In this document: positions 1-16,515 of the stretch, piece by piece | Layout: every line of letters starts with the position of its first letter | How positions within the stretch are numbered: the first letter of the stretch is position 1 | Assembly: GCA_026003335.1 (NCBI GenBank) | Contig: BPHB01000001.1 | Span: 1,076,591 to 1,140,590 of the forward strand | Source of the DNA: Chitinophagales bacterium | Lineage (GTDB): Bacteria > Bacteroidota > Bacteroidia > Chitinophagales > CAIOSU01 | Direction of reading: 5' to 3' | DNA length: 64,000 bases | Notes under the pieces: model-generated | What the model was told of the DNA's origin: nothing | Seen by the model: only the letters and a program-made list of their open reading frames with translations | The model's database searches: none | Translations under genes and position numbers: made by a program

Positions 1-312
1 CTCAGAGACACAGTCAATCTCACCGAACCCCGCGACACAGAAACCTGGAACGAACTAAGCCACGTGGTACTGCAAGCCCTCCGTGAGATTGCCGCAGAAA
101 TAAACCGGGATACCTCATTTGAAATAAAAATGCACCTCCTGAAAGAACTGCTGGAAGGTCATCACTTTAATCAGCGCGACTTTCTGCATGACTGTTGTGT
201 GTACGGTCTTTTCCGCATTTATAAATCACTGTGCGACATAAGCAGTGCCGAGATAAATAGTCTGCTGCTTCGTAAATATCCGGCAGACATGCAATACAAA
301 TATGTAAATTAA
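1..312 (+). CDS. C-terminal fragment of an unidentified protein (5' end outside window)
   Basis: The reading frame is open from base 1 to a TAA at 310-312, so about 103 residues of a longer protein are visible; the GTG at 64 is internal. The visible part is mostly alpha-helical and ends in a short basic tail. I recognise no domain. A stretch near its end (VYGLFRIYKSL followed by a short acidic/serine loop and a last helix) loosely resembles the end of the tail module carried by the radical SAM proteins downstream, so it may be the end of another protein of that set, but this rests on a few positions. The next gene starts 48 bp downstream on the same strand. Confidence 0.55.
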   Translation, partial: LRDTVNLTEPRDTETWNELSHVVLQALREIAAEINRDTSFEIKMHLLKELLEGHHFNQRDFLHDCCVYGLFRIYKSLCDISSAEINSLLLRKYPADMQYKYVN

Positions 313-360: not shown

Positions 361-1434
361 ATGCCAGAGGAAAGATTTACTGCATGCATCGATATAATCC
401 AAACGGTGAAATGTCTTCTCTTTTCGGTTTTGTTTTTCATTTTCTTACTGGAAGCGGCTCTTCGCATCACGGGCAAATGGATTACCGCATCTGAAAAAAG
501 CACCGGGAGATTTTTTTATGAATGGGGCTATGAAACGCATCGCCACTACGCCTATCCGCCTAACGATACCTTTGTGATGGATATAGGTGAATACAGCTGG
601 GAGTACCACACCAACAGCCTGGGATATCGCGAGAGGGAAATGGATACCGCACCTCCACACGCAATCCGGGCATTGGTTATTGGCGATTCCTTTGCCGAAG
701 GTAATGGAACCTCCTACGATAGCTCATGGGCTCGTCATCTGGAACGCAGGCTGCAACAAAAACATCCGGATGCAGAAGTGTATGTATGCGGAATTTCCGG
801 ATTTGATCCTTTTTATGCATATGTTGCCCTGAAAGAGCGACTGCTGCCTTACCGCCCTACCCACGTTTTGATTTCTGTAAATGATTCAGACTTTGACGAC
901 TTCATTATACGGGGCGGCTTCAGCCGTTTTAAAGACGGGAATCGTGTGCAATATAAAGATCCTCCCTGGTTTCTGCCTGTTTATCGGTATAGTCATATCG
1001 CACGCATGATCGCTCACACGTTTTGCCACTACGACTATTACCTGATACAACGTGTACATACGGAAAAGGTACGCAGAGAAGCTGCCGATAGCATATCCGC
1101 CTGTTTACAAAACATATATCAACTATGCCGGGAAAATCATATCCGATTCCTGGCGGTTATTTATCCGGTTCCACACAAGGTTTGTTATGCCACCGATGAC
1201 CATATCTTGTCTGATGTGCCTGCGCTGGAAAAAACAACAGCAGCCTATCCCGCGCTGTTTCTGTATAACGACCTGAGCAAAAACCTCAAAGCAGGTGATT
1301 GCATGAGTTACTGTTGGAAAACAGACAGCCATTTCAACAACAAAGGATATGCACTACTGGCTCATCTGATTGACTCGGCTATACAGGCTCAACATCCGGA
1401 TTTCTGGAGCATACCTGATTCCCCGGGATACTGA
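361..1434 (+). CDS. SGNH-hydrolase-like membrane-anchored protein
   Basis: The 357-residue protein has one hydrophobic helix near residues 17-35 and then a soluble domain probably facing the periplasm. SGNH/GDSL blocks are visible: GDSF with the nucleophile Ser110 (block I), a Gly near 144 (block II), Asn174 (block III) and a D-x-H pair at Asp322/His324 (block V). This family includes carbohydrate esterases and acyltransferase-associated domains, so removal or transfer of an ester (for example acetyl) group on a glycan is a reasonable guess. It is a paralogue of the 3302-4579 product: both share the block I context, the phrase DFDDFIIRGG / DLDDLIMRGG and the C-terminal H-x(n)-GY pattern. The 3' end overlaps the convergent gene at 1389-3230 by 46 bp. 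Start ATG at 361 follows a purine-rich stretch directly, so an SD-independent start is likely. Confidence 0.8.
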   Translation: MPEERFTACIDIIQTVKCLLFSVLFFIFLLEAALRITGKWITASEKSTGRFFYEWGYETHRHYAYPPNDTFVMDIGEYSWEYHTNSLGYREREMDTAPPHAIRALVIGDSFAEGNGTSYDSSWARHLERRLQQKHPDAEVYVCGISGFDPFYAYVALKERLLPYRPTHVLISVNDSDFDDFIIRGGFSRFKDGNRVQYKDPPWFLPVYRYSHIARMIAHTFCHYDYYLIQRVHTEKVRREAADSISACLQNIYQLCRENHIRFLAVIYPVPHKVCYATDDHILSDVPALEKTTAAYPALFLYNDLSKNLKAGDCMSYCWKTDSHFNNKGYALLAHLIDSAIQAQHPDFWSIPDSPGY

Positions 1435-3230
1435 GGCGCCCCCTGTAATACATTTTTACCCGGATGTGTTATCCTTTCGGGAATGACCACTGTCTTTCCG
1501 CCTTTTTGAATCAAAATCTGCCAATTGCAATCCGCGCACAGGTTCACACCTTTTACAATCAATGTTTCTGCATATCCATTCGCTACATCAGCCATCAGCG
1601 GAAACAATCGTATTTTTTCTCTTTCGCCTTCCTGATAAAGTAACACATAGTGCAGGTTATTGCTGAATCCTGAATAGACGGGCGTTGGCCCGGTGTTGTA
1701 AAGATGTATCCTGAACGCAGCCTGCCGCCATCCGGCACAGTTCTCAACCCGACTAACCCGGGCAGACACATGTGCTTTCAGATATTCCCAATCATTTTCC
1801 TTTTCTTCATTCAGCAGGCAATATGCTGATGAAGAAAAAGGAAAAAAATGCGGATTTACCGGCTCCGAGATTTGGTGTATATGATTCAGCAACTCCTGCT
1901 GCATAGCTTCATTTACAGGAAAACGTTTTGACTTGCGGGCCGGATCAGAAGGCCCTTCACGGAGAGCAATCCCCTGCCGGTGCCACTCCAGCATTTCCCA
2001 TGCCCTTTCATATATCCGTAATTCCACAGGCGTGCCTTCCTCGGCAGAAAGCAGTAATATTTCCGGATAAATATCCGCTGATATCCATACCGAAGAAGTA
2101 TCCTTAAAATAATTGTATCCATTGACAATACACCGCTGCATACCGTGCATCCGGCAGTAATCTATAAGGGTTTGCATATTTTCCACCCTCTTGGTAAACA
2201 TGCAGGAAGTCTGATAAATCGGATAATAGCTGACCCCGGCAATAGCAAGTACCACGGCCGGCAAAACCACCTGCCGCATACGTGGATGAAGCTGTGATGC
2301 ATGGAAGAAGTCCAACAGCAGGGTGACGGCAACCAGACCACTGAAGGCAAGATAATACTGCTGAGTAGCTCCATCCAGCGGAAAGTACTGACCTATAACA
2401 AGCATAATCCCAAATATGCTGACTGCCGTCAGGATGAGCCAAAGCCATTTTTTTCTTACTGCCTGAATAGCGACTACGATGCCCATACACCAACTGAGCA
2501 CCGGGTGATTTTGCATCATCCCGTATATTTCATGCAAAGTAAATATCCGGATACCAACCTGCAGACGTTCGCGCAACAGACCACCATCATAGTCGGGGAA
2601 AAAAATAAACTTCACCGCGATAACTCCGGTAAACAATCCCAGCGTAAGCAGAGCTTTTCGGATATGCACCTGCAGCATAATCATGTACAACAAGGCATAG
2701 ATTGTAACAATATATATCAGCGGATGACTGCCTACGAGAAAAAAGCTCAGAAGCAGCAGAATTCCTGAATGATACCATTTCAGCTTTTGGTCTCTGCACA
2801 AAAAGAAAAGTAAGAACAGCAGCAGCCCGAGGCCATAAAGCACCTCTCCATAAGGCCAGGCAAAATAGGCAAAATTCACCCCCAACGTTTGTATCAGCAC
2901 ATACAGCACACCATCTTCACGCTGGCGCAAGAGAAAAAATCCGGCCAGGAAAAGCATATAGAAAAACAACACATGACCTACCGAATAACTTATCAAAATC
3001 AGTTTGAGGGGCAAGTTGAGGCACACGGCAGCCAGAGGCAACCACTGGGAAAGCATAAGGATATAGCGGCTTCGCTCCACATTGAAACACTCCCGATTGA
3101 TTACACCCAAAAGGTAGCTTCCCGCATCACCGTGCAGCCTTTCCCGGTAAAACCACCACGCTGAAAAAAACAGCAGGGCAAAAGCAACATGGGTGAGAAT
3201 AAACCACAATTTTCTGTAATGGGGGACCAT
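1389..3230 (-). CDS. Multipass membrane protein, GT-C glycosyltransferase-like
   Basis: 613 residues. The first 350 or so form about ten hydrophobic helices and the last 250 are soluble and probably periplasmic. An acidic HGDAGSY motif lies in the first extracytoplasmic loop, where GT-C glycosyltransferases carry their catalytic acid. That topology resembles lipid-linked sugar transferases or DUF-type O-antigen membrane proteins, but no specific family was recognised. It is paralogous to the product of 5647-7113: after the acidic motif both have the pattern N-R-x-I-x(6)-LP-x-LAV-x-LN. The gene is convergent with and overlaps the SGNH gene at 361-1434, and diverges from the second SGNH gene with only 71 bp between. 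Function inferred, not shown. Confidence 0.7.
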   Translation of the reverse strand: MVPHYRKLWFILTHVAFALLFFSAWWFYRERLHGDAGSYLLGVINRECFNVERSRYILMLSQWLPLAAVCLNLPLKLILISYSVGHVLFFYMLFLAGFFLLRQREDGVLYVLIQTLGVNFAYFAWPYGEVLYGLGLLLFLLFFLCRDQKLKWYHSGILLLLSFFLVGSHPLIYIVTIYALLYMIMLQVHIRKALLTLGLFTGVIAVKFIFFPDYDGGLLRERLQVGIRIFTLHEIYGMMQNHPVLSWCMGIVVAIQAVRKKWLWLILTAVSIFGIMLVIGQYFPLDGATQQYYLAFSGLVAVTLLLDFFHASQLHPRMRQVVLPAVVLAIAGVSYYPIYQTSCMFTKRVENMQTLIDYCRMHGMQRCIVNGYNYFKDTSSVWISADIYPEILLLSAEEGTPVELRIYERAWEMLEWHRQGIALREGPSDPARKSKRFPVNEAMQQELLNHIHQISEPVNPHFFPFSSSAYCLLNEEKENDWEYLKAHVSARVSRVENCAGWRQAAFRIHLYNTGPTPVYSGFSNNLHYVLLYQEGEREKIRLFPLMADVANGYAETLIVKGVNLCADCNWQILIQKGGKTVVIPERITHPGKNVLQGAPQYPGESGMLQKSGC

Positions 3231-5646: not shown

Positions 5647-7113
5647 ATGTCACAGTGTTCAGGTACACGCTCGGGGTTCACCTTGCGGTTTATTGCCTAT
5701 GCCGGCTTTGCCTATCTGCTGGCGATTCTTCTTTTTTCGCTGCACCATTATCGCGAGATTCTGATTGCCGATGGTGCGTTTATGGTGTTTGAGATGTGTA
5801 ATACGGCTTGGTTTCCTCAGGCACAAAACAGGCTTATCATTTTAATTCTTGATGTGCTGCCAGTGTTGGCAGTGAATCTGAATTTTTCACTAAAGGCGGT
5901 CATCCTGTCCTGGATACTTAATTATTTTATTTTCTACACCATCTGCTTTGGGATTACGGCCCTTGTTCTGAAAGATTTTCTGGCAGCCGGTATTCTATTG
6001 GCCACTTATGCCTTTACATTAAGCGCATGTTTTTACAATGTGGCAAATGAAATTCAGCCTGCAGCAGTGTTGGCAGTTACAGCATTTTCGGCTATCCGAA
6101 ACCGGGGCATGCAGAGTATATGGCGCTATGTAATCTATGTGATGATTTTTTTTATTGCTTTTTCTCATCCCCTGGTGGGGGTAGCTCTGTTTCTGACAGC
6201 AATCTGGTTAACCCTTTGGGATTATTCTTCTGTTGTAGCTGCTCTTAAAAAATATTATCTGTTGGTGCTCGTATTCTCTTCCATGCTGGTGCTGCGCATG
6301 ATTCTGGCAACGCAAAATACCTATGAGAGCTTCCGGCTGCAGGTGAGTCCGGAAATGTTTACAGATTTTCTCACACACCTGAACTTTCATTACCTGCGGG
6401 CAACCGCACATTTTATGTTATCTGCATTTCCGACTCTGACAGTATTGCTTTTTTCTTTTATTGCTATTCAGCTTTACCGGCGGGCATGGCGTACACTTAC
6501 CGTGTGTTTAATCCTTACGTTTGCTTACACTGTGGTGTGGTTCTTTTATGTCAATCCGCAAACGCCCTGGCTGCTCAACCGCTACGATCATCTTACCATT
6601 CGCTGGTATTTCCCGGCCGCATTTCTTGTGGTTGTATCTTTTTTCAGAACTATAACTACCCTGCCGGAACAAACAGCCTTACGTAAAGGATTCAACCTGT
6701 TGCTTATCGTTTTACTGCTCTTTCAGCTCTACTGGTTGCATGGCACAGCCCTTTTAGCACAAAATACCGTCAGGCAATACGAGCTGCTCTTTGCCGCTGC
6801 CCGGCAACAGGAGGGCTCTAAATTCTATATTCCGGAAGAAGCTACCTGCAGATGGGTGTACCGCAGTCAGGTGTTTGTATCATCACTTGTTTACTCCGCG
6901 CTGGCAGCACCGGATTCGTCCCTGCATATAATCATAGCAAATACAGCGCATGAAAAACCGGTGCTACAAAACCCCTCTGATAAGATTCTTCTCAGCAGAA
7001 ATTACTCCGTCTCTGTGTACAAGCTGAACAAGAATTATTTCAAGCTTCATTCCGGGCCCTATCGCAGACTGGAGACCGACCTTTCGGAGTGTACAGGGAT
7101 GCCTCCACCTTAA
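5647..7113 (+). CDS. Multipass membrane protein, GT-C glycosyltransferase-like
   Basis: 488 residues with about ten hydrophobic helices over the first 380 and a shorter soluble tail. The acidic DGAF motif near residue 40 lies in the first large loop, as in GT-C enzymes. It is paralogous to the minus-strand protein at 1389-3230 (shared N-R-L/Y-I pattern, LP-x-LAV-x-LN, and a similar helix layout), but its soluble tail is about 130 residues shorter. Start ATG at 5647. It lies 106 bp after the sulfotransferase-like gene and probably belongs to the same unit. The enzymatic role is inferred from topology only. Confidence 0.7.
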   Translation: MSQCSGTRSGFTLRFIAYAGFAYLLAILLFSLHHYREILIADGAFMVFEMCNTAWFPQAQNRLIILILDVLPVLAVNLNFSLKAVILSWILNYFIFYTICFGITALVLKDFLAAGILLATYAFTLSACFYNVANEIQPAAVLAVTAFSAIRNRGMQSIWRYVIYVMIFFIAFSHPLVGVALFLTAIWLTLWDYSSVVAALKKYYLLVLVFSSMLVLRMILATQNTYESFRLQVSPEMFTDFLTHLNFHYLRATAHFMLSAFPTLTVLLFSFIAIQLYRRAWRTLTVCLILTFAYTVVWFFYVNPQTPWLLNRYDHLTIRWYFPAAFLVVVSFFRTITTLPEQTALRKGFNLLLIVLLLFQLYWLHGTALLAQNTVRQYELLFAAARQQEGSKFYIPEEATCRWVYRSQVFVSSLVYSALAAPDSSLHIIIANTAHEKPVLQNPSDKILLSRNYSVSVYKLNKNYFKLHSGPYRRLETDLSECTGMPPP

Positions 7114-7228: not shown

Positions 7229-9901
7229 TTGTCCATACACCCAATCCTGAAAAAAGCATCTGCGATGAGAGACCCTAAAGCTTCCAACTTTTGCTATTAC
7301 CCGTTTTTCCAGATTTTGCTTTCCGCTGACGGCCACTATAAGCCTTGCAGCAAACACCGCGACATCATTACGCATAAGGGAAAAATCCTGAACACCTCCA
7401 ATGCTACATTACAGGATGCCTGGGAGTCGGACTACATGCAGCGGATGCGTGATGACTTTCTGAATAATCGTATGTTTCCCGGTTGCTCGGAGTGCTGGCG
7501 CATGCAAAAAATGGGACTACGATCCATGCGCTATGATTCCTATCAATACAATATTTCGGAGCAACAGGTAGCCAACCCCGTAAAACCGGTACGTGTGGAG
7601 CTGAACTCTTCCAATATCTGTAACCTGAAGTGCAGGTTGTGCTCTCCTAACGCATCTACCCAATGGCTGCCGGAGTTTAAGAAGTTTTACAACTCCAGAG
7701 AAACTACGCACATCAACCTTACACGCGAAAATCTGGAACAGGTAAAGGCATGGGCTGATAATCTGGAAGAAGTCTGCTTTTTTGGTGGGGAACCCCTCCT
7801 GTTTGCTGAAAATCTGGAGCTGATGAAGTTTCTTATCAGCAAGGGAAGGGCAAAGGATGTGGCTTTGCTTTTCAATACCAACGGTACCATCTTTAATGAT
7901 GAAATTGCCCTCATTCTTTCCGAGTTTAAGCGCGTCAGGATTTCTTTCAGCATTGATGACATTGGCAAACGCTTTGAATATCAGCGCTCCAATGCCAAAT
8001 GGGAGCAGGTGCTGGAAAACATCCACTTGGCTTATAACTACTGGAAAAGCCCGCTGTGGAAAAATGTGGAATTCAAAATCTGTCAGTCGTTTTCCATACT
8101 CAATGTATATTACCAGCCTGAATTTTTTGCGTTTTTCAACAAATACTTTCCCGGCCTGGTTGTTTACTGGAACATCATTTACCATCCGTGGGAGTACAAC
8201 GTGCAGATTCTTCCACGACCCGTTAAAGAAATTCTTAAAACACGCCTCAGACAAATCACCACTACATTCCCCTTATCTCATGACGAAACAAAAACCATTG
8301 ATGACCTGATCATATACATGGATCATGACGTTCCTCAGAATTTTGCTGAATTTTTCCGCTACATTAACCGCCACGATGTTTATCGCGGAGAACGCTTTGA
8401 CGAGGTATTTCCTGAGTTTTGGCAAGTTATTGAACCTTACAAACCTGACGACCTGATAATGGGGCAATATGACCCGATGGATGCCTGGATAAGACGAAAC
8501 GAGCCTTATCATCCGGATGTGGATTATATATCCAGGCTGGCTGACGGTGTGGAGACTTACCTGAAAAAGCATTATCCCGATCAGGAAGTTGCTACCAGAA
8601 AACAGCAGTTTTTCAGCAGGATAAACAAGTGCATGCCTGACAAAAACCTGCGTCATTTGCTGTATTATATTTTAACCCTTTCCCGACCCGGAGAGATTTA
8701 CGAAGACATCAATAATACAGATGACGCGCAACTGTCTTTGCTGATCAAACAATCCTTTGCCTATTACTTTGCTGACCATCCATACCCTTACAATCAGAAT
8801 GTGGATTATGCAGAAGCAGCCGGTCTGATTATGAAACGCTTTTTAGTAGAAAGCTATACCGAAACCCAGGCTGAAATTTTATCGCGGGAATTTGTGTCTA
8901 AAGCCCGTCAGAAAATACAAGCATATAATAGTATTGAAACAGAAAATCTCCTGTTCTATACGCTCTTGCATGAAGATTGTGCTACTTTGTATAATGCGGT
9001 AATAGATGCCGGGGATGAAGACTTTTTTATTCTTCTGGATGAAACCCTGACTCGCTATTACCGCAAGCTGAGGCAACCTTATGAGCCCCAACAGTCGTAT
9101 GTACAAGTAATTAAAGACGATCTGAAGTTTTACCTGCTTAAAAATAATCCGGACAGGGAGGCAGAGCAGCAGGTGGAAACATTGCTAAACCGCATTCAGT
9201 CGCTTATACATAAAACAGACAAGCATAACCAAAACAACATATACTACAAGCTATCTCATTTGCCAATACGCAAACTATATCGGCAAATGATTACCGGTTC
9301 CGATGAGCAATGGACAGCGTTTATGCACCAGTTGGTGTATCATCCGGAGGTGGATTATCGTGCAATGTTAGGCGCTGTTATCACCGGTTATCTGCGCAGC
9401 CGCGAAAATGGTCATTCTGTGCAGCTGAGTGAACGGTTTATCAGGCGCCTGGAGGAGAGGCTGCAGAGCTATCGCGGGATTGAGGCGAAAAACCTGCTAT
9501 TCTTTATCCTCATGCAGGCCAATCCGGAAAAGTTATGGAAGGCAGGGATGCAGGAAGACGCTCATCTTTTTTCCACCTTTCTGAATGAAGCCGTGCGCAA
9601 CTACTACTACCACAACCGAACTGTTTACGACCCGCACGCTAATTATGCGGAAAAATTATCAGCAGCCTTGCGCCTGTTGTTTCGCAAAAGCCATTCTGAG
9701 GCCGAAGCCTCCAGACTTTCAGATACCTTCTTCGCACGTTTGCAGGAAGCAGCCCGGGATTGCGGAATAGAGGATTTAAACAAGGTTTTTTACTTCATGA
9801 CCCACACTCCCATTCATCAGATTTATACAGAAATATCTTCCCTTAGCAACGAGGCACTGAGAGCTAAAATGCAGGAAAGCCTAAAAATGCCTGTAGCCTG
9901 A
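7229..9901 (+). CDS. Radical SAM protein, N-terminal twitch domain, five C-terminal repeats
   Basis: 890 residues in three parts. Residues 20-100 form a SPASM/twitch-like cysteine domain placed ahead of the core (Cys22, Cys40, Cys86, Cys89). Residues 120-345 are the radical SAM core with CNLKCRLC (Cys131, Cys135, Cys138) binding the SAM-cleaving 4Fe-4S cluster and GGEP at 186-189. Residues 427-890 hold five tandem helical modules of 86-97 residues, each opening with a Y-x(5)-Y heptad. The start used is TTG at 7229 because it places Cys22 at the same distance from the N-terminus as in the paralogues at 11580 and 12773; ATG at 7265 is the alternative. It belongs to the N-twitch radical SAM family (known only as a domain architecture; substrate unknown). 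Its TGA abuts the stop of the next, minus-strand, radical SAM gene. Confidence 0.88.
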   Translation: MSIHPILKKASAMRDPKASNFCYYPFFQILLSADGHYKPCSKHRDIITHKGKILNTSNATLQDAWESDYMQRMRDDFLNNRMFPGCSECWRMQKMGLRSMRYDSYQYNISEQQVANPVKPVRVELNSSNICNLKCRLCSPNASTQWLPEFKKFYNSRETTHINLTRENLEQVKAWADNLEEVCFFGGEPLLFAENLELMKFLISKGRAKDVALLFNTNGTIFNDEIALILSEFKRVRISFSIDDIGKRFEYQRSNAKWEQVLENIHLAYNYWKSPLWKNVEFKICQSFSILNVYYQPEFFAFFNKYFPGLVVYWNIIYHPWEYNVQILPRPVKEILKTRLRQITTTFPLSHDETKTIDDLIIYMDHDVPQNFAEFFRYINRHDVYRGERFDEVFPEFWQVIEPYKPDDLIMGQYDPMDAWIRRNEPYHPDVDYISRLADGVETYLKKHYPDQEVATRKQQFFSRINKCMPDKNLRHLLYYILTLSRPGEIYEDINNTDDAQLSLLIKQSFAYYFADHPYPYNQNVDYAEAAGLIMKRFLVESYTETQAEILSREFVSKARQKIQAYNSIETENLLFYTLLHEDCATLYNAVIDAGDEDFFILLDETLTRYYRKLRQPYEPQQSYVQVIKDDLKFYLLKNNPDREAEQQVETLLNRIQSLIHKTDKHNQNNIYYKLSHLPIRKLYRQMITGSDEQWTAFMHQLVYHPEVDYRAMLGAVITGYLRSRENGHSVQLSERFIRRLEERLQSYRGIEAKNLLFFILMQANPEKLWKAGMQEDAHLFSTFLNEAVRNYYYHNRTVYDPHANYAEKLSAALRLLFRKSHSEAEASRLSDTFFARLQEAARDCGIEDLNKVFYFMTHTPIHQIYTEISSLSNEALRAKMQESLKMPVA
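8507..9898 (+). repeat. Five tandem protein-level repeats in the radical SAM tail
   Basis: The modules begin at residues 427 (YHPDVDY), 521 (YNQNVDY), 618 (YEPQQSY), 704 (YHPEVDY) and 800 (YDPHANY). Each has a helix, a Phe/Leu-rich R-I or R-L position near the middle, an N-L-x-F/Y-x-I/L segment and an L/I-Y-x(n)-D/E ending. The repeats are diverged, so this is old duplication rather than a recent nucleotide repeat. A sixth copy forms the C-terminus (residues 433-518) of the neighbouring minus-strand radical SAM protein. Confidence 0.75.
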
Positions 9902-11458
9902 TCAGCGCCCGACTACTTTGTGTATGGCATTGCGTAGCTCTTCGTCCGAAAACCGCATAACGTCAGCATAAACCACATCTATCGGAGTACAACTGATGTG
10001 GAAGTAAAGTTTGTTTCTGTCTGCATCAGGAAAATGCAGCTCTAATATCCCACGGATGCGGCTGAAGAAGGCCTCGCAGTTTTCTTCATCACCGGGCTTA
10101 CCCTTCATAAAATTCTCCAAAGCGCTGCGCACCAAAGCTTCATAATCGATTTCCGGCTCAAAAGAGGGCAGCTTTACCGATGTAACGGTGGGTTCCGCTT
10201 CTGGCTCGCTTTCTTTCTGAACGTTTCGGCAGGAAGCAGGTTCCTCGGCACCAGACTGTCTTTCAGGAAATCGTTGCATCGGTATAATTTCATCACGCGG
10301 ACGGGTTAGATTGGTTATTCGGGCATTTTCCAGATACACGAGGAAATCATCAAAGCAGCGTTTATTATTTTGCTGAGCAAAAGTATGTACAGGAAAACTT
10401 TCGTTCTTTAGCTCATCCTGAATGGCGGCAAGCTCTTCGGAAGGCAGATTCCATAATCCAAACTGAGGCGGAGTTTTCAGATAACTGACGTAAAGAATGG
10501 CATCCAGGTCATTGCAAAAACGAATAATCTTTGGAAACTCGCGCCAGTTAATACGCATTAATGTGAAACTGATAACGAGATTTTTCTTTCTTCTCCGGCA
10601 ATAATCATTAAAGTACTCTATATTCTGCATTACTACTTCGTGCCGTGTATGAACACGTATGGACTCCAGTGGTTCCTTATCGGGTGAATCCATTGACACG
10701 GCAAGATCAAAGTTGCCCCGTTCAAGCATCGCTTTAATCCGGTCATCCAGAGTGGTGCCGTTGGTTATTACAAATATTTTGATACCCGGATTAAGACTAA
10801 GCATACGATCCCATATCTTGTAATAAATGGGAATAAGCAAAGGTTCACCGCCATAAAACTTGGCTTCTTTCAGGTGCGGTATAAATTCATCCAGTTGTTC
10901 CACAAATGCATCATCATAGGGGCTTTTTATGGGAGGCAGCTTATCACGGTTTTTGCGGATGGAAGAGGATACCTTGCCATTACACATCACACACTCCAGA
11001 TTGCAGGTATTACTCAGCTCAAATTCAAGCACTCGCGGATAGGTATAATCCTGAATATCACTGTACACATCAAAAACCAATGGCTTGAGACCCGAAAATT
11101 TTCTGTTTTCAAAAAAATATTTACAGTGCTTGCACCCATAAGAGAGGTCATTGTGCAACATATGTTCACGCAACCGCTTTCCCTCTTCGCTGTCAAACCA
11201 CATCTGCCGGATGCTCTGCTGCGGATAACGTCCCAGCACTACTTTCTGATTATAGGCACAGGCAAGCACCCGTCCTTCAAAAGAGAAGGACATGTTGCTG
11301 AACGGTACATAGCAGAACAATTTGCGTGGACCTGCAGGCCGAAACTGATTATATGCGCGATAGATTTCCGGATTCAGCGGCTGATAGCCGCTATCGGAAG
11401 CAGCTGACACTTCCGTGCCCGCGGCACCTCCAAACAGTCTTTTGATCCTGGTCAGCAT
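9902..11458 (-). CDS. Radical SAM protein with N-terminal twitch domain and one tail module
   Basis: 518 residues. The N-terminal cysteine domain (Cys49, Cys67, Cys109, Cys112) has the SPASM-like pattern of a first Cys, an E-G-x-V-x-A-C turn, LGRYP, a Trp and a closing C-x-x-C. The radical SAM motif is CNLECVMC at 152-159 (C-x3-C-x2-C), with GGEP further on. A low-complexity Glu/Ser/Pro-rich linker follows around 400-432. Residues 433-518 form one copy of the helical module found five times in the neighbouring 890-residue protein. The gene is convergent with that neighbour with no base between the stop codons, and diverges from the 11580 gene across 121 bp. Substrate unknown. Confidence 0.88.
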   Translation of the reverse strand: MLTRIKRLFGGAAGTEVSAASDSGYQPLNPEIYRAYNQFRPAGPRKLFCYVPFSNMSFSFEGRVLACAYNQKVVLGRYPQQSIRQMWFDSEEGKRLREHMLHNDLSYGCKHCKYFFENRKFSGLKPLVFDVYSDIQDYTYPRVLEFELSNTCNLECVMCNGKVSSSIRKNRDKLPPIKSPYDDAFVEQLDEFIPHLKEAKFYGGEPLLIPIYYKIWDRMLSLNPGIKIFVITNGTTLDDRIKAMLERGNFDLAVSMDSPDKEPLESIRVHTRHEVVMQNIEYFNDYCRRRKKNLVISFTLMRINWREFPKIIRFCNDLDAILYVSYLKTPPQFGLWNLPSEELAAIQDELKNESFPVHTFAQQNNKRCFDDFLVYLENARITNLTRPRDEIIPMQRFPERQSGAEEPASCRNVQKESEPEAEPTVTSVKLPSFEPEIDYEALVRSALENFMKGKPGDEENCEAFFSRIRGILELHFPDADRNKLYFHISCTPIDVVYADVMRFSDEELRNAIHKVVGR

Positions 11459-11507
11459 AAGAGCCCTGTCTTTATCAACACTTTACTAATTTAGCTAAAA
11501 CAGTTGA

Positions 11508-11548
11508 GCAGGTATTCCGGCCACTCATATTTTAAAATTAAAACCTGC
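11508..11548. promoter_or_regulatory. Inverted repeat between divergent radical SAM genes
   Basis: The 121-bp divergent intergenic region contains GCAGGTATT at 11508-11516 and AAAACCTGC at 11540-11548, inverted with one mismatch and a 23-bp spacer. The spacer contains a perfect palindrome, ATTTTAAAAT, at 11529-11538. This could be an operator controlling both genes; no regulator gene is adjacent. Confidence 0.3.
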
Positions 11549-11579
11549 CTTTCAGCCAAAGAAGCAAAAATTTTGTATT

Positions 11580-12761
11580 GTGGCAACACCAGAGCAAATA
11601 AGAAGTTTCAACGCTTCCAGACGCGCAGATACAAGCCAGCTCTGTTATGCGCCCTGGCTGGCACTGAACTTTGACCAGACAGGCAACGTGACCGCCTGCT
11701 GCTTCAATAGAAGACACATTTTAGGCCGCTATCCGGCCAATCGCCTTCGGGAAATCTGGGAGGGCGCAGAAGCCAATGCCCTTCGTCAGGCTATGGCAGA
11801 TTATCGGTTTGATCTGGGATGTCAGAGCTGCGAGCGCATGATTGAGGAAGGCAACTACCAGAGCGTGCTGATCAGTCATTTTGATGATTATTATCCGCTG
11901 ATAGCGCATCGTCTAAACGGCCATAAATCCTGGTTTGACAAATTGTTTAAAACAGCAGGCGCCAGGGCGCTGCCTGACCCTGTGGTTTTTGAATTTGAAA
12001 TCAGCAATACCTGCAATCTGGAGTGTATCATGTGCGGAGGTAAATGGTCATCTGCCATACGCAAAAACCGGGAAAAGAAACCTCAGCCCCCCAATCCGTA
12101 TGACCAGAATTTTGTGGAGGAAGTAAAACAGTTTCTTCCCAACCTAAAACGGGCCAATTTTCTGGGAGGCGAGCCTTTCCTCATAAGCCTGTACTATGAA
12201 CTATGGGAAGCCATTTTGGATATTAATCCTTCCATTGATGTGGCTATAACTTCCAATGGCACCGTGATGAACACACGGGCAAAACGTATTATTGAAAAAT
12301 TACCTCACTGCCGAATTACTCTTTCGGTAGACAGCCTGCAAAAAGAAACCTGGGAGACAATCCGTGTGAATGGCTCCTTTGAGCATCTGCAGGAAACCAT
12401 GGACTACCTTCTTAGAACCGGTAAACTGGTTTCTTTTTCCGTGTGTCCGATGATTCAAAACCGCATGGAAATTCCACACCTGATTCATTTCTGTGCAGAC
12501 AAGCATCTGGATATTTATTTTAATGTTGTTTATGAGCCTCTGGGCGGCAGAATAAAGGGCATTCATCAGGATAACGATGGTGATGGTTTTATTCCGGAAA
12601 CTTCATTGCAGGCGCTCTCTGCAGCAGAACTGGAAGCTCTGATTGCCTATTACCGTACGTTTCGGTTTTCGGGCAGATATCGCCAGCAGCTTGACCACCT
12701 GATTGCCCAATTGGAGGTGTGGATGCAGGCTAAAGCCGGACAACCCGCACCACAAAGCTGA
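11580..12761 (+). CDS. Radical SAM protein with N-terminal twitch domain
   Basis: 393 residues, the shortest of the four paralogues: the cysteine domain (Cys22, Cys40, Cys41, Cys81, Cys84) plus the radical SAM core with CNLECIMC at 145-152 and a GGEP motif, without the extra tail module. The start is GTG at 11580, supported by N-terminal alignment with the 12773 product (both have P-x-x-I/Q-x-x-x-N-A before the first Cys). It is followed after 11 bp by the next paralogue on the same strand, so the two are probably co-transcribed. The core matches the 518- and 531-residue proteins around the cluster site (S-N-T/V-C-N-L-E-C, then S-S-x-I-R-K-N-R). Reaction and substrate unknown. Confidence 0.87.
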   Translation: MATPEQIRSFNASRRADTSQLCYAPWLALNFDQTGNVTACCFNRRHILGRYPANRLREIWEGAEANALRQAMADYRFDLGCQSCERMIEEGNYQSVLISHFDDYYPLIAHRLNGHKSWFDKLFKTAGARALPDPVVFEFEISNTCNLECIMCGGKWSSAIRKNREKKPQPPNPYDQNFVEEVKQFLPNLKRANFLGGEPFLISLYYELWEAILDINPSIDVAITSNGTVMNTRAKRIIEKLPHCRITLSVDSLQKETWETIRVNGSFEHLQETMDYLLRTGKLVSFSVCPMIQNRMEIPHLIHFCADKHLDIYFNVVYEPLGGRIKGIHQDNDGDGFIPETSLQALSAAELEALIAYYRTFRFSGRYRQQLDHLIAQLEVWMQAKAGQPAPQS

Positions 12762-12772
12762 ACACAGATGGT

Positions 12773-14368
12773 ATGCTTTCGCCCGACATTATAAAAGCCT
12801 ATAACGCAGTCCGCAAAACACGCAACAAGTCGCTGTTGTGTCATGCTCCTTTTACCAATCTCAACTTTGAGCAAAACGGCAACGTCACGGCCTGCTGCTT
12901 CAACCGGAAAGAGATTTTAGGGCGCTATCCTGAAAATTCCATTGCTGAAATCTGGAACGGCAAACCCCTCCAATCCCTCAGAGAAAAAATTAAAAGTAAC
13001 GATCTGGATGGCGGATGCAAATTATGCCGCATTCTGCTGGAAAGCGGCAACTACAGCGGGACAAAGGCTATTTACTATGATGAGTATGCACACGAACAAA
13101 GTATAATTGACCGTCTTACTTCTGCGCTGGGCGGCACATTTGACTTTTATCCGAAGGTGTTTGAATTTGAAATCAGCAATGTATGCAATCTGGAATGTGA
13201 AATGTGCAGCGGATATTATTCTTCCGCCATCCGAAAAAACCGGGAAAAGCTGCCTCCCCTGCCTCAACCCTATGACGATGCCTTTGTAGAGCAGGTTGCT
13301 GCATTCATGCCACGCCTCACTGACCTGAAGTTTTTGGGAGGTGAACCTTTTCTCATTGATATTTACTATAAAATCTGGGACAAAGTCGCTGCAATCAACC
13401 CTCAGCTTCGGATACACATCACCACTAATGGAACGGTGTTCAACAATAGGGTGCAAAATCTGCTCAGCAGGCTAAAAGCCGGCTTTGTGATTTCCATTGA
13501 CTCTGTCAATCCGCAGCATTATGAGAAAATAAGGGCAGGGGCACGCTTTGAAAGGGTGATGGATAACTTTCAGAAGTTCCGGGAAATTGCTTTGAAAAAA
13601 AATACATACCTGACCATAGCTGCCTGCGTGATGTCCAATAACTGGCAAGATATTCCGGACATTGTGCGCTTTGCAAATACGCAAAACGTGGCCGTGCACT
13701 TCAACATGGTCTGGAATCCCGGTCATCTTTCCATACGTTTTCTCAGCTATGAAGAAATTGACCGTATCATTGCATACCTGAAAGGACAGCATCTGCATGC
13801 CACCACGCCCGTGGGTAAAAACAATCTGAACAATTTTCAGGAAGTCATTCACACACTGGAATACTGGAAAAAAGAACGCAGCTACACCCGCCTTACGGAC
13901 ATAGCAGGAAACTATCAATTGCATCCTGAATATTTAAGTACTCTACCGGATGCTCCTTCTTCCCGCAAGCTGGCAGCTTTATTGCTTCTGCACTTTCTGC
14001 AAGGTAAGAATGAACCCGTTGCAATAGAAAGCTTACGCGCATTTCTGGGCGAGGAACTCCCCTGTCCTACAGATATTCGTATTGTTTTGTTTGACTACTG
14101 GAGACAGAAAGGCGACCATGACTTTACAGTCATGCTTTTAGATCTTTATCCGCCCCTTTATGCAACACTGATGGGCTCCGATGGCCTGGATGAATTTACG
14201 GAGCGCGTCCGGGAATTGAAATCCCTGCTGATAGACTTCAAACAGCTTCAGGCTGTTGTCAGCGACACTATTGATGACATAGCAAGATATGGTATTCTCA
14301 GGCAGCTGAACATGGTAAAAAATAACGAGGTTGCTACTTTGCAAAAGCACCTGGAAGAAAGCTATTAA
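12773..14368 (+). CDS. Radical SAM protein with N-terminal twitch domain and distinct helical tail
   Basis: 531 residues. The cysteine domain (Cys23, Cys41, Cys42, Cys82, Cys85) is followed by a radical SAM core with CNLECEMC at 138-145 and GGEP. About 150 C-terminal residues (from about 385) are helical, but they do not show the Y-x(5)-Y heptad of the tail modules in the 890- and 518-residue paralogues, so this is either a very diverged copy or an unrelated tail. It starts 11 bp after the stop of the preceding paralogue and is convergent with the CBS gene, 9 bp away. The motif pattern supports a 4Fe-4S radical enzyme; nothing in the sequence fixes the substrate. Confidence 0.87.
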   Translation: MLSPDIIKAYNAVRKTRNKSLLCHAPFTNLNFEQNGNVTACCFNRKEILGRYPENSIAEIWNGKPLQSLREKIKSNDLDGGCKLCRILLESGNYSGTKAIYYDEYAHEQSIIDRLTSALGGTFDFYPKVFEFEISNVCNLECEMCSGYYSSAIRKNREKLPPLPQPYDDAFVEQVAAFMPRLTDLKFLGGEPFLIDIYYKIWDKVAAINPQLRIHITTNGTVFNNRVQNLLSRLKAGFVISIDSVNPQHYEKIRAGARFERVMDNFQKFREIALKKNTYLTIAACVMSNNWQDIPDIVRFANTQNVAVHFNMVWNPGHLSIRFLSYEEIDRIIAYLKGQHLHATTPVGKNNLNNFQEVIHTLEYWKKERSYTRLTDIAGNYQLHPEYLSTLPDAPSSRKLAALLLLHFLQGKNEPVAIESLRAFLGEELPCPTDIRIVLFDYWRQKGDHDFTVMLLDLYPPLYATLMGSDGLDEFTERVRELKSLLIDFKQLQAVVSDTIDDIARYGILRQLNMVKNNEVATLQKHLEESY

Positions 14369-15024: not shown

Positions 15025-16515
15025 ATGAAAGGTAAAGTTCACCGGAGAGAATTTTCGGCTATAAAGGATTTTATTGCTTTCATGCAGGAACCCCTGCAAA
15101 AAACATCTCTGCTGATTGCTCTGGGTGCAGGAGCGCTTCTGTTTGTCATTTTGCATGCGTGTTATCCTTATCCGGACACATTTCCTGATACCGGAGCTTA
15201 CATTCAGCAGGCTGAAATTCTGAAATTCGGCAGCTTTCGGCCTATTGGTTTTTCTGTTTTTCTTGCCTGGACACATGCACTGTCCGAGTCTTTTTTGTTT
15301 TTCAGAGCCGCGCAATTCGTGCTGCACTTTATTACCGCACTGGCGTTGTTTTACTCTGTTGTTTTTTTCTTCCGCCCCTGCGGTGGTATCCTGTACTACG
15401 GGTTACTCATGGCAACCGTTATGCATCCGGCTGCTTTGTATTTGACGGGAGTAGTCATGAGCGATTCCCTGTTTATTTCCCTCACATACCTATACCTGGC
15501 ATCGCTCATCTGGATTGTTGGCCGGGCTAATGTTTTTTTTATCGTTCTGAATCTGGTATTGATTTATGCTATCACACAAGTAAGATATACAGGGTTGTTT
15601 TATCCGGTAATTTCTGCTTTGTCATTCTTTTTAGCTTATCGGGAAAAGGTTACTGCTGCTTTGTTAAGTCTGTTGCCGTTTGCGGTTATTGGGTTACTCA
15701 TTGTACAAACCCGCAATGGCACCGAGAAACACATCGGGGTGAAAATGTTTTCCGGATTCAGCGGTTGGCAGCTCGCCAACAACGCCCTTCATCTTATACC
15801 GCACATACAACTCAGTGCAAATGAAATCAGCGATCCGGAAATTCGATTTGTCCACCAACTGGTATTGATTACCCGCGATTCGGTTGACTATCCCAAAAAT
15901 GATGTCAGTTCAGATTTTATATGGAACAACAAAGGTCCGTTAAAAGCCGTGCTCTTCACCAGCATGCAATATACGCGCCAGCCCTATCTCACAGCATGGT
16001 ATCGGGTAAGCCCTATACTGGGGAAGTATGGTTCATTTCTCATTAAAAAATATCCGCTTGCATTTGCCCGCTGGTTTTTACTTATCAATTTCAGACGGCT
16101 GTTGTATCCTGACAACGAAATGTTCAAGCGTTTTGAATCCAACGTGCCTGAGATTGCCAAAGACTGGTTTCATTTAAAAGGGGAAGGCTTTCGTCCCGGC
16201 TTTGCCCCCTTTCACAAGACAGCTTTCCTGTTGCCTTTGCTTAACCTTATCGGATGGATTTTGTTCATCACCGCGGTTGGCTTTGCCGCTATTCGGTGGA
16301 AACGATTATCATTTGATCCACGTCAGGAAAAAATCTTTGCCATCCTGCTGGGTTTTGTTTTGCTGTATAGCGCTTTCAGTGTGTATGCCGGGCCCATTGT
16401 AACACGCTATCTTATACCGGTGCATACAACCCAGGCACTTCTTATCTATTCGTTGCTAAACACATGGCTTCTCCGCAGAAAAACCTTCCCGGCAAAAGAT
16501 ATACTACAAAAATAA
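15025..16515 (+). CDS. Multipass membrane protein, GT-C/ArnT-like glycosyltransferase candidate
   Basis: 496 residues with a cytosolic N-terminus and about ten hydrophobic helices, closing with a basic tail. The first loop contains the acidic PDTFPDTGAY motif (residues around 52-60), the place where dolichyl-phosphate-mannose- or ArnT-type enzymes have their catalytic Asp. A large soluble loop around 245-360 separates the early and late helices. Such enzymes take a sugar from a polyprenyl phosphate and transfer it to lipid, glycan or protein at the periplasmic face. It lies 156 bp or more from its neighbours and could serve the same envelope-modification role as the similar proteins at 1389 and 5647. 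Confidence 0.7.
   Translation: MKGKVHRREFSAIKDFIAFMQEPLQKTSLLIALGAGALLFVILHACYPYPDTFPDTGAYIQQAEILKFGSFRPIGFSVFLAWTHALSESFLFFRAAQFVLHFITALALFYSVVFFFRPCGGILYYGLLMATVMHPAALYLTGVVMSDSLFISLTYLYLASLIWIVGRANVFFIVLNLVLIYAITQVRYTGLFYPVISALSFFLAYREKVTAALLSLLPFAVIGLLIVQTRNGTEKHIGVKMFSGFSGWQLANNALHLIPHIQLSANEISDPEIRFVHQLVLITRDSVDYPKNDVSSDFIWNNKGPLKAVLFTSMQYTRQPYLTAWYRVSPILGKYGSFLIKKYPLAFARWFLLINFRRLLYPDNEMFKRFESNVPEIAKDWFHLKGEGFRPGFAPFHKTAFLLPLLNLIGWILFITAVGFAAIRWKRLSFDPRQEKIFAILLGFVLLYSAFSVYAGPIVTRYLIPVHTTQALLIYSLLNTWLLRRKTFPAKDILQK

Follow-up and report, generated by a model that had tools for sequence, protein, structure and literature searches.

The stretch of DNA analysed here (in the following, the window) comprises 64,000 nucleotides of contig BPHB01000001.1 of a Chitinophagales bacterium, and at positions 7,229 to 14,368 it carries four genes for radical S-adenosylmethionine (SAM) proteins of the N-twitch kind, in which a SPASM/twitch-like cysteine domain stands before the radical SAM core and not after it. 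The first-pass annotation had described four paralogues of 890, 518, 393 and 531 residues within 7 kb; all four open reading frames (ORFs) were confirmed at these places and lengths, with the 518-residue gene on the minus strand, but four was an undercount, since a genome search with the NF033640 model gave a cluster of seven N-twitch genes in approximately 18 kb, with the edge of the window cutting through it. The cluster is real, larger and more conserved than was first noted.

Three further N-twitch genes, the third of which ends inside the window at position 312, are found together with a second sulfotransferase-like gene in the 4.9 kb left of the window start. Read in the stretch L010, these three ORFs encode 457, 416 and 530 residues and are preceded by a protein of 270 residues (L010 13692-14504), which groups by BLAST with the sulfotransferase-like protein of the window and gave a Sulfotransfer_3 match in the genome search. 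Between the 530- and 890-residue genes there are SGNH, membrane-protein and sulfotransferase genes (Table 1). The 890-residue ORF more likely begins at the ATG at 7265, which would give a protein of 878 residues, because this agrees with the start of the 530-residue paralogue. The ORFs farther left of the cluster are, judging by their sequence, presumably bioB, bioF and bioD. An eighth N-twitch gene of the genome is located on contig C3; it (L012 9512-13595) adjoins an SGNH gene and a gene of the fatty-acid-hydroxylase type, and a few genes separate it from a ThiF-like gene.

Domain architecture and the helical tail

In all four window proteins Pfam gives an N-terminal SPASM match (PF13186) that is followed by Radical_SAM (PF04055), as had been claimed, and four conserved twitch cysteines (CX17C...CX2C) precede the CX3CX2C motif of the core. 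The top NCBIfam match of each is N_Twi_rSAM (NF033640), with 316 (890 residues), 157 (518), 165 (393) and 198 (531) bits. As the curated cut-off of this model is 170 bits, the family check suggested at the outset turned out positive for SPASM in all four proteins and for NF033640 in two, the 518- and 393-residue proteins being just short of it. Over the whole cluster, the three members of class A (see below) score above 300 bits, while the N, T and 393-residue C types of class B are slightly under the cut-off (148–165 bits). The cluster shares its domain order and cysteines with NF033640, which is, as the first-pass annotation had it, a known domain family with no assigned role: the family is named, its description gives no function, and a cassette of several types is absent from its definition.

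The paralogues were also said to have different tails, and this is correct, as a helical domain of approximately 90 residues, which occurs once in the 518-residue protein, makes up the C-terminal part of the 890-residue protein in five diverged copies. A profile of the five copies, run against 1299 proteins (211 of them N-twitch), gave three further matches, all at the C-termini of N-twitch radical SAM proteins, namely the 518-residue protein (E 2e-9), one in L088 (E 1e-5) and, weakly, one in L099 (E 0.002). A search of 59 other genomes gave no match to the five-copy tail (both here and in the N-twitch search the set was of 60 genomes, the window's own among them). A helical tail on the 530-residue protein was considered and is unsupported, as BLAST gives nothing. 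A docking role of the domain is our guess.

Enzyme types and their conservation in relatives

A tree of 49 N-twitch proteins is split into a class A and a class B. The seven genes of the cluster represent six types, and for each of them the nearest row by path from outside the genome belongs to one single cluster of the genome G037, from another family of the same order. The order of types is identical in the two clusters, and the orientation matches in five of six. Four of the six pairs are well supported (457/460, 416/411, 518/484 and 393/396 residues, the window's genome given first); for 531/547 and 530 or 890/542 the pairing follows from the shortest path, in unresolved forks, and in a larger tree the 531- and 547-residue proteins share a clade of six rows with a Shimodaira–Hasegawa-like approximate likelihood ratio test (SH-aLRT) value of 80. 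The sole apparent local duplicates are the 530- and 890-residue proteins, with 64% identity. The idea of a local family expansion was therefore mostly wrong, and a recent expansion is rejected as the main origin of the cluster, given that G037 has the same six types.

When 206 N-twitch proteins are aligned (210 before four with identical cores were removed; the protein L013 discussed below was excluded from the trees), the types of class B are told apart by a single position close to where a barrel strand ends, residue 285 of the 531-residue protein. It is asparagine in 30 of 30 rows of the N clade (SH-aLRT 100) and threonine in 30 of 30 rows of the T clade (SH-aLRT 95), while the 120 rows outside N, T and class A hold cysteine in 100, a gap in 15, leucine and valine in two each and threonine in one; the C-type rows do not form one clade. 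Class A has threonine in 17 and serine in nine of its 26 rows. In the model of the 518-residue protein the corresponding T299 is at the end of a predicted strand (295–300), which suggests that the residue lies in the active site.

Related loci were collected by a genome scan that was seeded with class-B patterns and limited to the best 80 of 236, so class B is over-represented among them, and many clusters are cut by contig ends. The resulting 72 loci are not independent, as several come from one metagenome-assembled genome (MAG), several coincide with contigs of the genomes searched and some are near relatives; 71 of them contain a full-length N-twitch gene and 42 contain two or more. Full-length matches were found in 12 of the 59 other genomes, ten of which have at least two on one contig, the exceptions being G044, with two on separate contigs, and G005, with one plus fragments. 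Of 295 genomes drawn evenly from the class, among them the window's own, 16 matched the class-B profile at E 1e-30 or better, four of them weakly (above 1e-40); the remaining 11 other than the own genome comprise seven with at least two genes within 10 kb on one contig, three with one gene and one with two on separate contigs. The genes of the relatives are mostly clustered, and the clusters fetched contain glycosyltransferase, SGNH, methyltransferase, UbiA and amidotransferase genes, in some cases also export genes, so the neighbourhood comparison did not give the scattered single genes that would have spoken against a pathway.

The three types of class B recur as a trio. Sixteen of the 19 loci holding all three have them in the convergent order C>, <N, <T, and 22 of 23 loci with a T type also hold N. 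Upstream of the trio there is a gene of one of two glycosyltransferase-type families with a DXD motif in all 15 trio loci that have an upstream gene. The 16 trios show intergenic gaps of at most 21 bases or overlaps, except in L072, where 571 bases separate C and N. The typing profiles were built from clades containing the typed rows themselves, and order and orientation are independent of the typing; an earlier typing by the single residue had given ten trios because duplicate rows and gaps were left untyped. N, T and two C types are present in the window cluster too, where they do not follow the order C>, <N, <T and have no UbiA alongside. Further class-A genes lie within approximately 5 kb of the trio in several loci (e.g., L074 15874-19395 and L093 15765-18450), and the two classes may therefore be parts of a single system. 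In L128, from a Bacteroidota MAG, five genes of a B12-binding radical SAM group, named from one representative, adjoin four N-twitch genes. In L118, from the strain Taishania pollutisoli CZZ-1, a single N-twitch gene has UbiA, methyltransferase and AsnB-like genes in its vicinity, and the stretch covered there holds no trio.

Neighbouring genes and substrate class

The neighbours in the 72 loci, where each family was named from one representative and some match Pfam weakly, are of the glycosyltransferase type in 53, SGNH type in 33, UbiA in 33, asparagine-synthase-like (AsnB-like) in 24 and methyltransferase in 20. A common gene order is methyltransferase, UbiA, asparagine-synthase-like, glycosyltransferase, trio and SGNH. 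PhyH, B12-binding radical SAM, carbamoyltransferase and Wzt/Wzm-like genes are recurrent near N-twitch genes as well. Export genes are Wzt-like in ten loci and ABC-2 permeases in eight, and none was among the ten scanned proteins of the window.

Within the window's own genome, 3 of 7 Lipase_GDSL_2 matches and 2 of 5 Sulfotransfer_3 matches fall within 3 kb of N-twitch genes, an area of 0.75% of the genome (binomial 1.5e-5 and 5.6e-4, respectively, for a distance picked after inspection of the map). The neighbours had been described as SGNH-, sulfotransferase- and GT-C-like. This holds for the sulfotransferase, which is narrowly over its cut-off, and for one of the two SGNH proteins, as the Pfam cut-off of PF13472 is 32.9 bits; the GT-C label has no family match behind it. 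The membrane proteins of 613, 488 and 496 residues matched nothing in Pfam or NCBIfam; the first two are paralogues (E 1e-10) with 9–10 hydrophobic segments by a crude hydropathy count, for which a GT-C type is plausible and unproven, and they are the only glycosyltransferase candidates at the window cluster. By BLAST, the 425-residue SGNH-like protein is one of a group of 28, every member of which comes from a fetched N-twitch locus. The 357-residue SGNH protein lacks DxxH and has a TDSH block near its end, and in this it looks nearer to the AlgX/AlgJ-type acyltransferases than to hydrolases. A weak ALGX match was given by a protein of a neighbour family related to it.

Table 1. Features of the N-twitch cluster and its surroundings in the window.
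Feature	Position	Strand	Evidence
3' end of the 530-residue class-A N-twitch radical SAM gene (L010 17311-18903)	64..312	+	82-residue ORF in the window
SGNH/GDSL protein, 357 residues	361..1434	+	PF13472 38.7 bits; GDSF motif; one hydrophobic N-terminal segment
Polytopic membrane protein, 613 residues, GT-C-like by general look only	1389..3230	-	About 10 hydrophobic segments; paralogue of 5647-7113
SGNH/GDSL-like protein, 425 residues	3302..4579	+	PF13472 26.7 bits, under cut-off; GDSF and DGHH motifs
Sulfotransferase-like protein, 297 residues	4647..5540	+	PF13469 27.8 bits, cut-off 27; paralogue L010 13692-14504
Polytopic membrane protein, 488 residues, GT-C-like by general look only	5647..7113	+	Hydropathy; paralogue of 1389-3230
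Class-A N-twitch radical SAM part of the 890-residue ORF (7229-9901)	7265..8506	+	NF033640 316 bits; four twitch Cys; CX3CX2C
Five tandem helical-domain copies, C-terminal part of the 890-residue ORF	8507..9901	+	86-97 residues each, 16-28% identical
Class-B N-twitch radical SAM, T type, 518 residues; one helical-domain copy at the C-terminus (9905-10162)	9902..11458	-	
Class-B N-twitch radical SAM, C type, 393 residues, without helical tail	11580..12761	+	
Class-B N-twitch radical SAM, C type, 531 residues	12773..14368	+	NF033640 198 bits
Polytopic membrane protein, 496 residues, possibly a cluster member	15025..16515	+	About 9 hydrophobic segments; no family match

Due to the neighbours in the related loci, the enrichment of SGNH and sulfotransferase matches in the own genome and the absence of any evident gene for a precursor (see below), a glycan or glycolipid is favoured over a peptide as the substrate, by association.

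Radical chemistry and competing explanations

The top match of the class-B profile in PDB is BtrN, a 2-deoxy-scyllo-inosamine dehydrogenase (4m7s, 4m7t; E 4e-12), and as the core and the twitch of BtrN are matched in swapped order, the permutation is shown directly: in BtrN the core comes first and the twitch is C-terminal, unlike in the cluster enzymes. The N-twitch profile alone also gives BtrN, at E 3e-10 and as the only PDB match below E 0.2, and the CX17C...CX2C spacing is shared in the alignment. The cysteines and this match suggest that the N-twitch domain holds one fully ligated auxiliary [4Fe-4S] cluster. According to PMC9012708, the auxiliary cluster of BtrN, of low potential and with four cysteine ligands, has been proposed to accept the second electron in the oxidation of a sugar-like alcohol, with direct proof missing.

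We therefore propose, with a probability of roughly 0.5, that the window holds most of a module of seven N-twitch radical SAM enzymes in a cluster of the surface-glycan or glycolipid type, whose non-redundant radical steps edit one glycan or glycolipid. The CX3CX2C core should bind the SAM-cleaving cluster, and the permuted N-terminal twitch with its four cysteines would carry the auxiliary one. Chemistry similar to that of BtrN is likely, where the 5'-deoxyadenosyl radical would abstract a hydrogen from a sugar or cyclitol carbon, and the second electron would pass to the auxiliary cluster, leaving a ketone or another redox-edited carbon. Since matching types stay together in different families and are distinguished by a residue fixed by type (C, N or T; T or S in class A), they probably perform non-redundant steps on a single kind of substrate, while the surrounding genes may build, sulfate or acylate, and move this substrate. 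The first-pass annotation had offered a multi-step pathway or several substrates of one kind; clustering and the correspondence of types across families support the pathway idea, and several substrates of one kind may still be involved.

Several results weigh against this proposal. The class-A profile ranks BtrN under other radical SAM cores, even if its N-terminal part still aligns with the BtrN twitch. An ordinary radical SAM protein of the same genome with a C-terminal SPASM/twitch domain (L013 6389-7405) matches BtrN at E 3e-15, i.e., at least equally well, and therefore the BtrN match says nothing on the substrate and was dropped as evidence for it; BtrN seems to be the only member with a solved structure in a twitch type that is common. 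This control has the normal domain order, its C-terminal domain is matched by positions 5–70 of the N_Twi_rSAM model, and its best NCBIfam models (tungsten-cofactor and metalloenzyme maturase) are both far under cut-off. The top structural matches tie sugar-acting enzymes (BlsE, DesII) with peptide maturases, MoaA and viperin-like enzymes. Neither UbiA, AsnB nor a sugar-nucleotide enzyme was found among the ten scanned proteins of the window cluster, the sole UbiA match of the genome is distant and on another contig, the trio order differs in the window, and its GT-C-like genes match no family.

The structural matches were obtained with AlphaFold models of the 518- and 878-residue proteins (mean predicted local distance difference test, pLDDT, 88.7 and 73.9). 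In VIA, the 518-residue model matched BlsE (Z 13.5, 3.4 Å, 221 residues), tied with SuiB, MoaA, SkfB and viperin-like enzymes, and the 878-residue model gave tied matches at about Z 13 to anSME, DesII and a thioether-forming peptide maturase. The VIA tables of the two models mainly cover residues 59–383 and 21–355, and the tail of the 890-residue protein was modelled at low confidence. On the basis of these models, the matches agree with a radical SAM barrel and favour no particular substrate.

The same matches include the radical SAM epimerase EpeE, next to DesII, and together with the conserved cysteine of the C types near the barrel-strand end they are consistent with sugar epimerases, mutases or dehydratases in place of oxidases, in which the C/N/T residue would set whether the radical is quenched by hydrogen donation or rearranges. 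The alignment to EpeE, however, ends at approximately its residue 195, which means that the cysteine of the C types is not the positional equivalent of Cys223 of EpeE, and we consider this alternative unlikely, though not negligible. A bolder form of the glycan-editing proposal, which we find doubtful, is that at least three non-redundant N-twitch enzymes act in series to turn one sugar-bearing intermediate into a sugar new to bacteria, as a radical counterpart of nucleotide-sugar editing, with the 890-residue protein and its five helical copies as a docking scaffold holding the other enzymes.

That the enzymes are maturases of proteins or of ribosomally synthesised and post-translationally modified peptides (RiPPs), each modifying a peptide or protein, with glycan-type neighbours that either are there by chance or decorate the product, would be in line with the literature on SPASM/twitch radical SAM enzymes, where many of the papers among the matches listed concern peptide maturases, and with SuiB, SkfB and anSME among the tied structural matches. 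A clear precursor gene was not seen: in the 14 gaps scanned in the own cluster there are six ORFs with an ATG start, all of 17–47 residues, any of which may be a short precursor, and the longest is positioned past the last radical SAM gene. Since the trio genes are also tightly packed in the related loci (L072 excepted), and the recurrent neighbours are glycosyltransferases, UbiA, amidotransferase and SGNH, a peptide substrate appears improbable.

UbiA keeps the motif NDxxDxxxD in 11 of 12 rows, with NE in the twelfth, and by NCBIfam two of the proteins weakly resemble prenyl and geranylgeranylglycerol-phosphate transferases; an assignment as decaprenyl-phosphate phosphoribosyltransferase is unsupported, as the few weak NCBIfam matches are other prenyltransferases. 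These features, the recurrence of UbiA and of methyltransferases beside N-twitch genes, and the lipid-forming radical SAM enzyme GDGT-MAS among the structural matches could point to a lipid or polyprenyl part as the target, with UbiA, a CMAS/UbiE-like methyltransferase and the radical SAM enzymes building an unusual anchor, isoprenoid or lipid, for later glycosylation, but there is little chance of this, as the clusters of the window and of G037 have the same radical SAM types without a close UbiA.

The recurring cassette of three residue-marked types, with glycosyltransferase, UbiA and amidotransferase genes beside it, gives the N-twitch family, so far without an assigned function, a pathway context and enzymes that can be tested. 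If the editing of one glycan or glycolipid is true, multi-step radical editing joins the chemistry of bacterial surface sugars. Among the literature matches listed, judged by titles and the beginnings of abstracts, no paper dealt with a cassette of this kind or with N-twitch proteins as a family, some of the matches being on pili, twitching motility, muscle innervation and axons instead, and in the passages available of PMC10456417 and PMC10470005 the relevant phrase sits in a citation only. Within these matches the context of the trio is undescribed, while the N-twitch family itself is already known.

Distant homologues similar to N-twitch proteins, with 22–26% identity at the best places, are present and also grouped in KVP40-like Vibrio phages. 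Phage QD01 (L139, 135270-137376 of the record) has a convergent pair, and K566 (L140) has several radical SAM genes in one stretch. Neither stretch has an annotated UbiA/AsnB operon; the annotated neighbours are a nicotinamide phosphoribosyltransferase and a deazaguanine-type synthase, i.e., of the nicotinamide adenine dinucleotide (NAD) or deazaguanine type, along with an RfaF-type heptosyltransferase in QD01 and PagP in K566.

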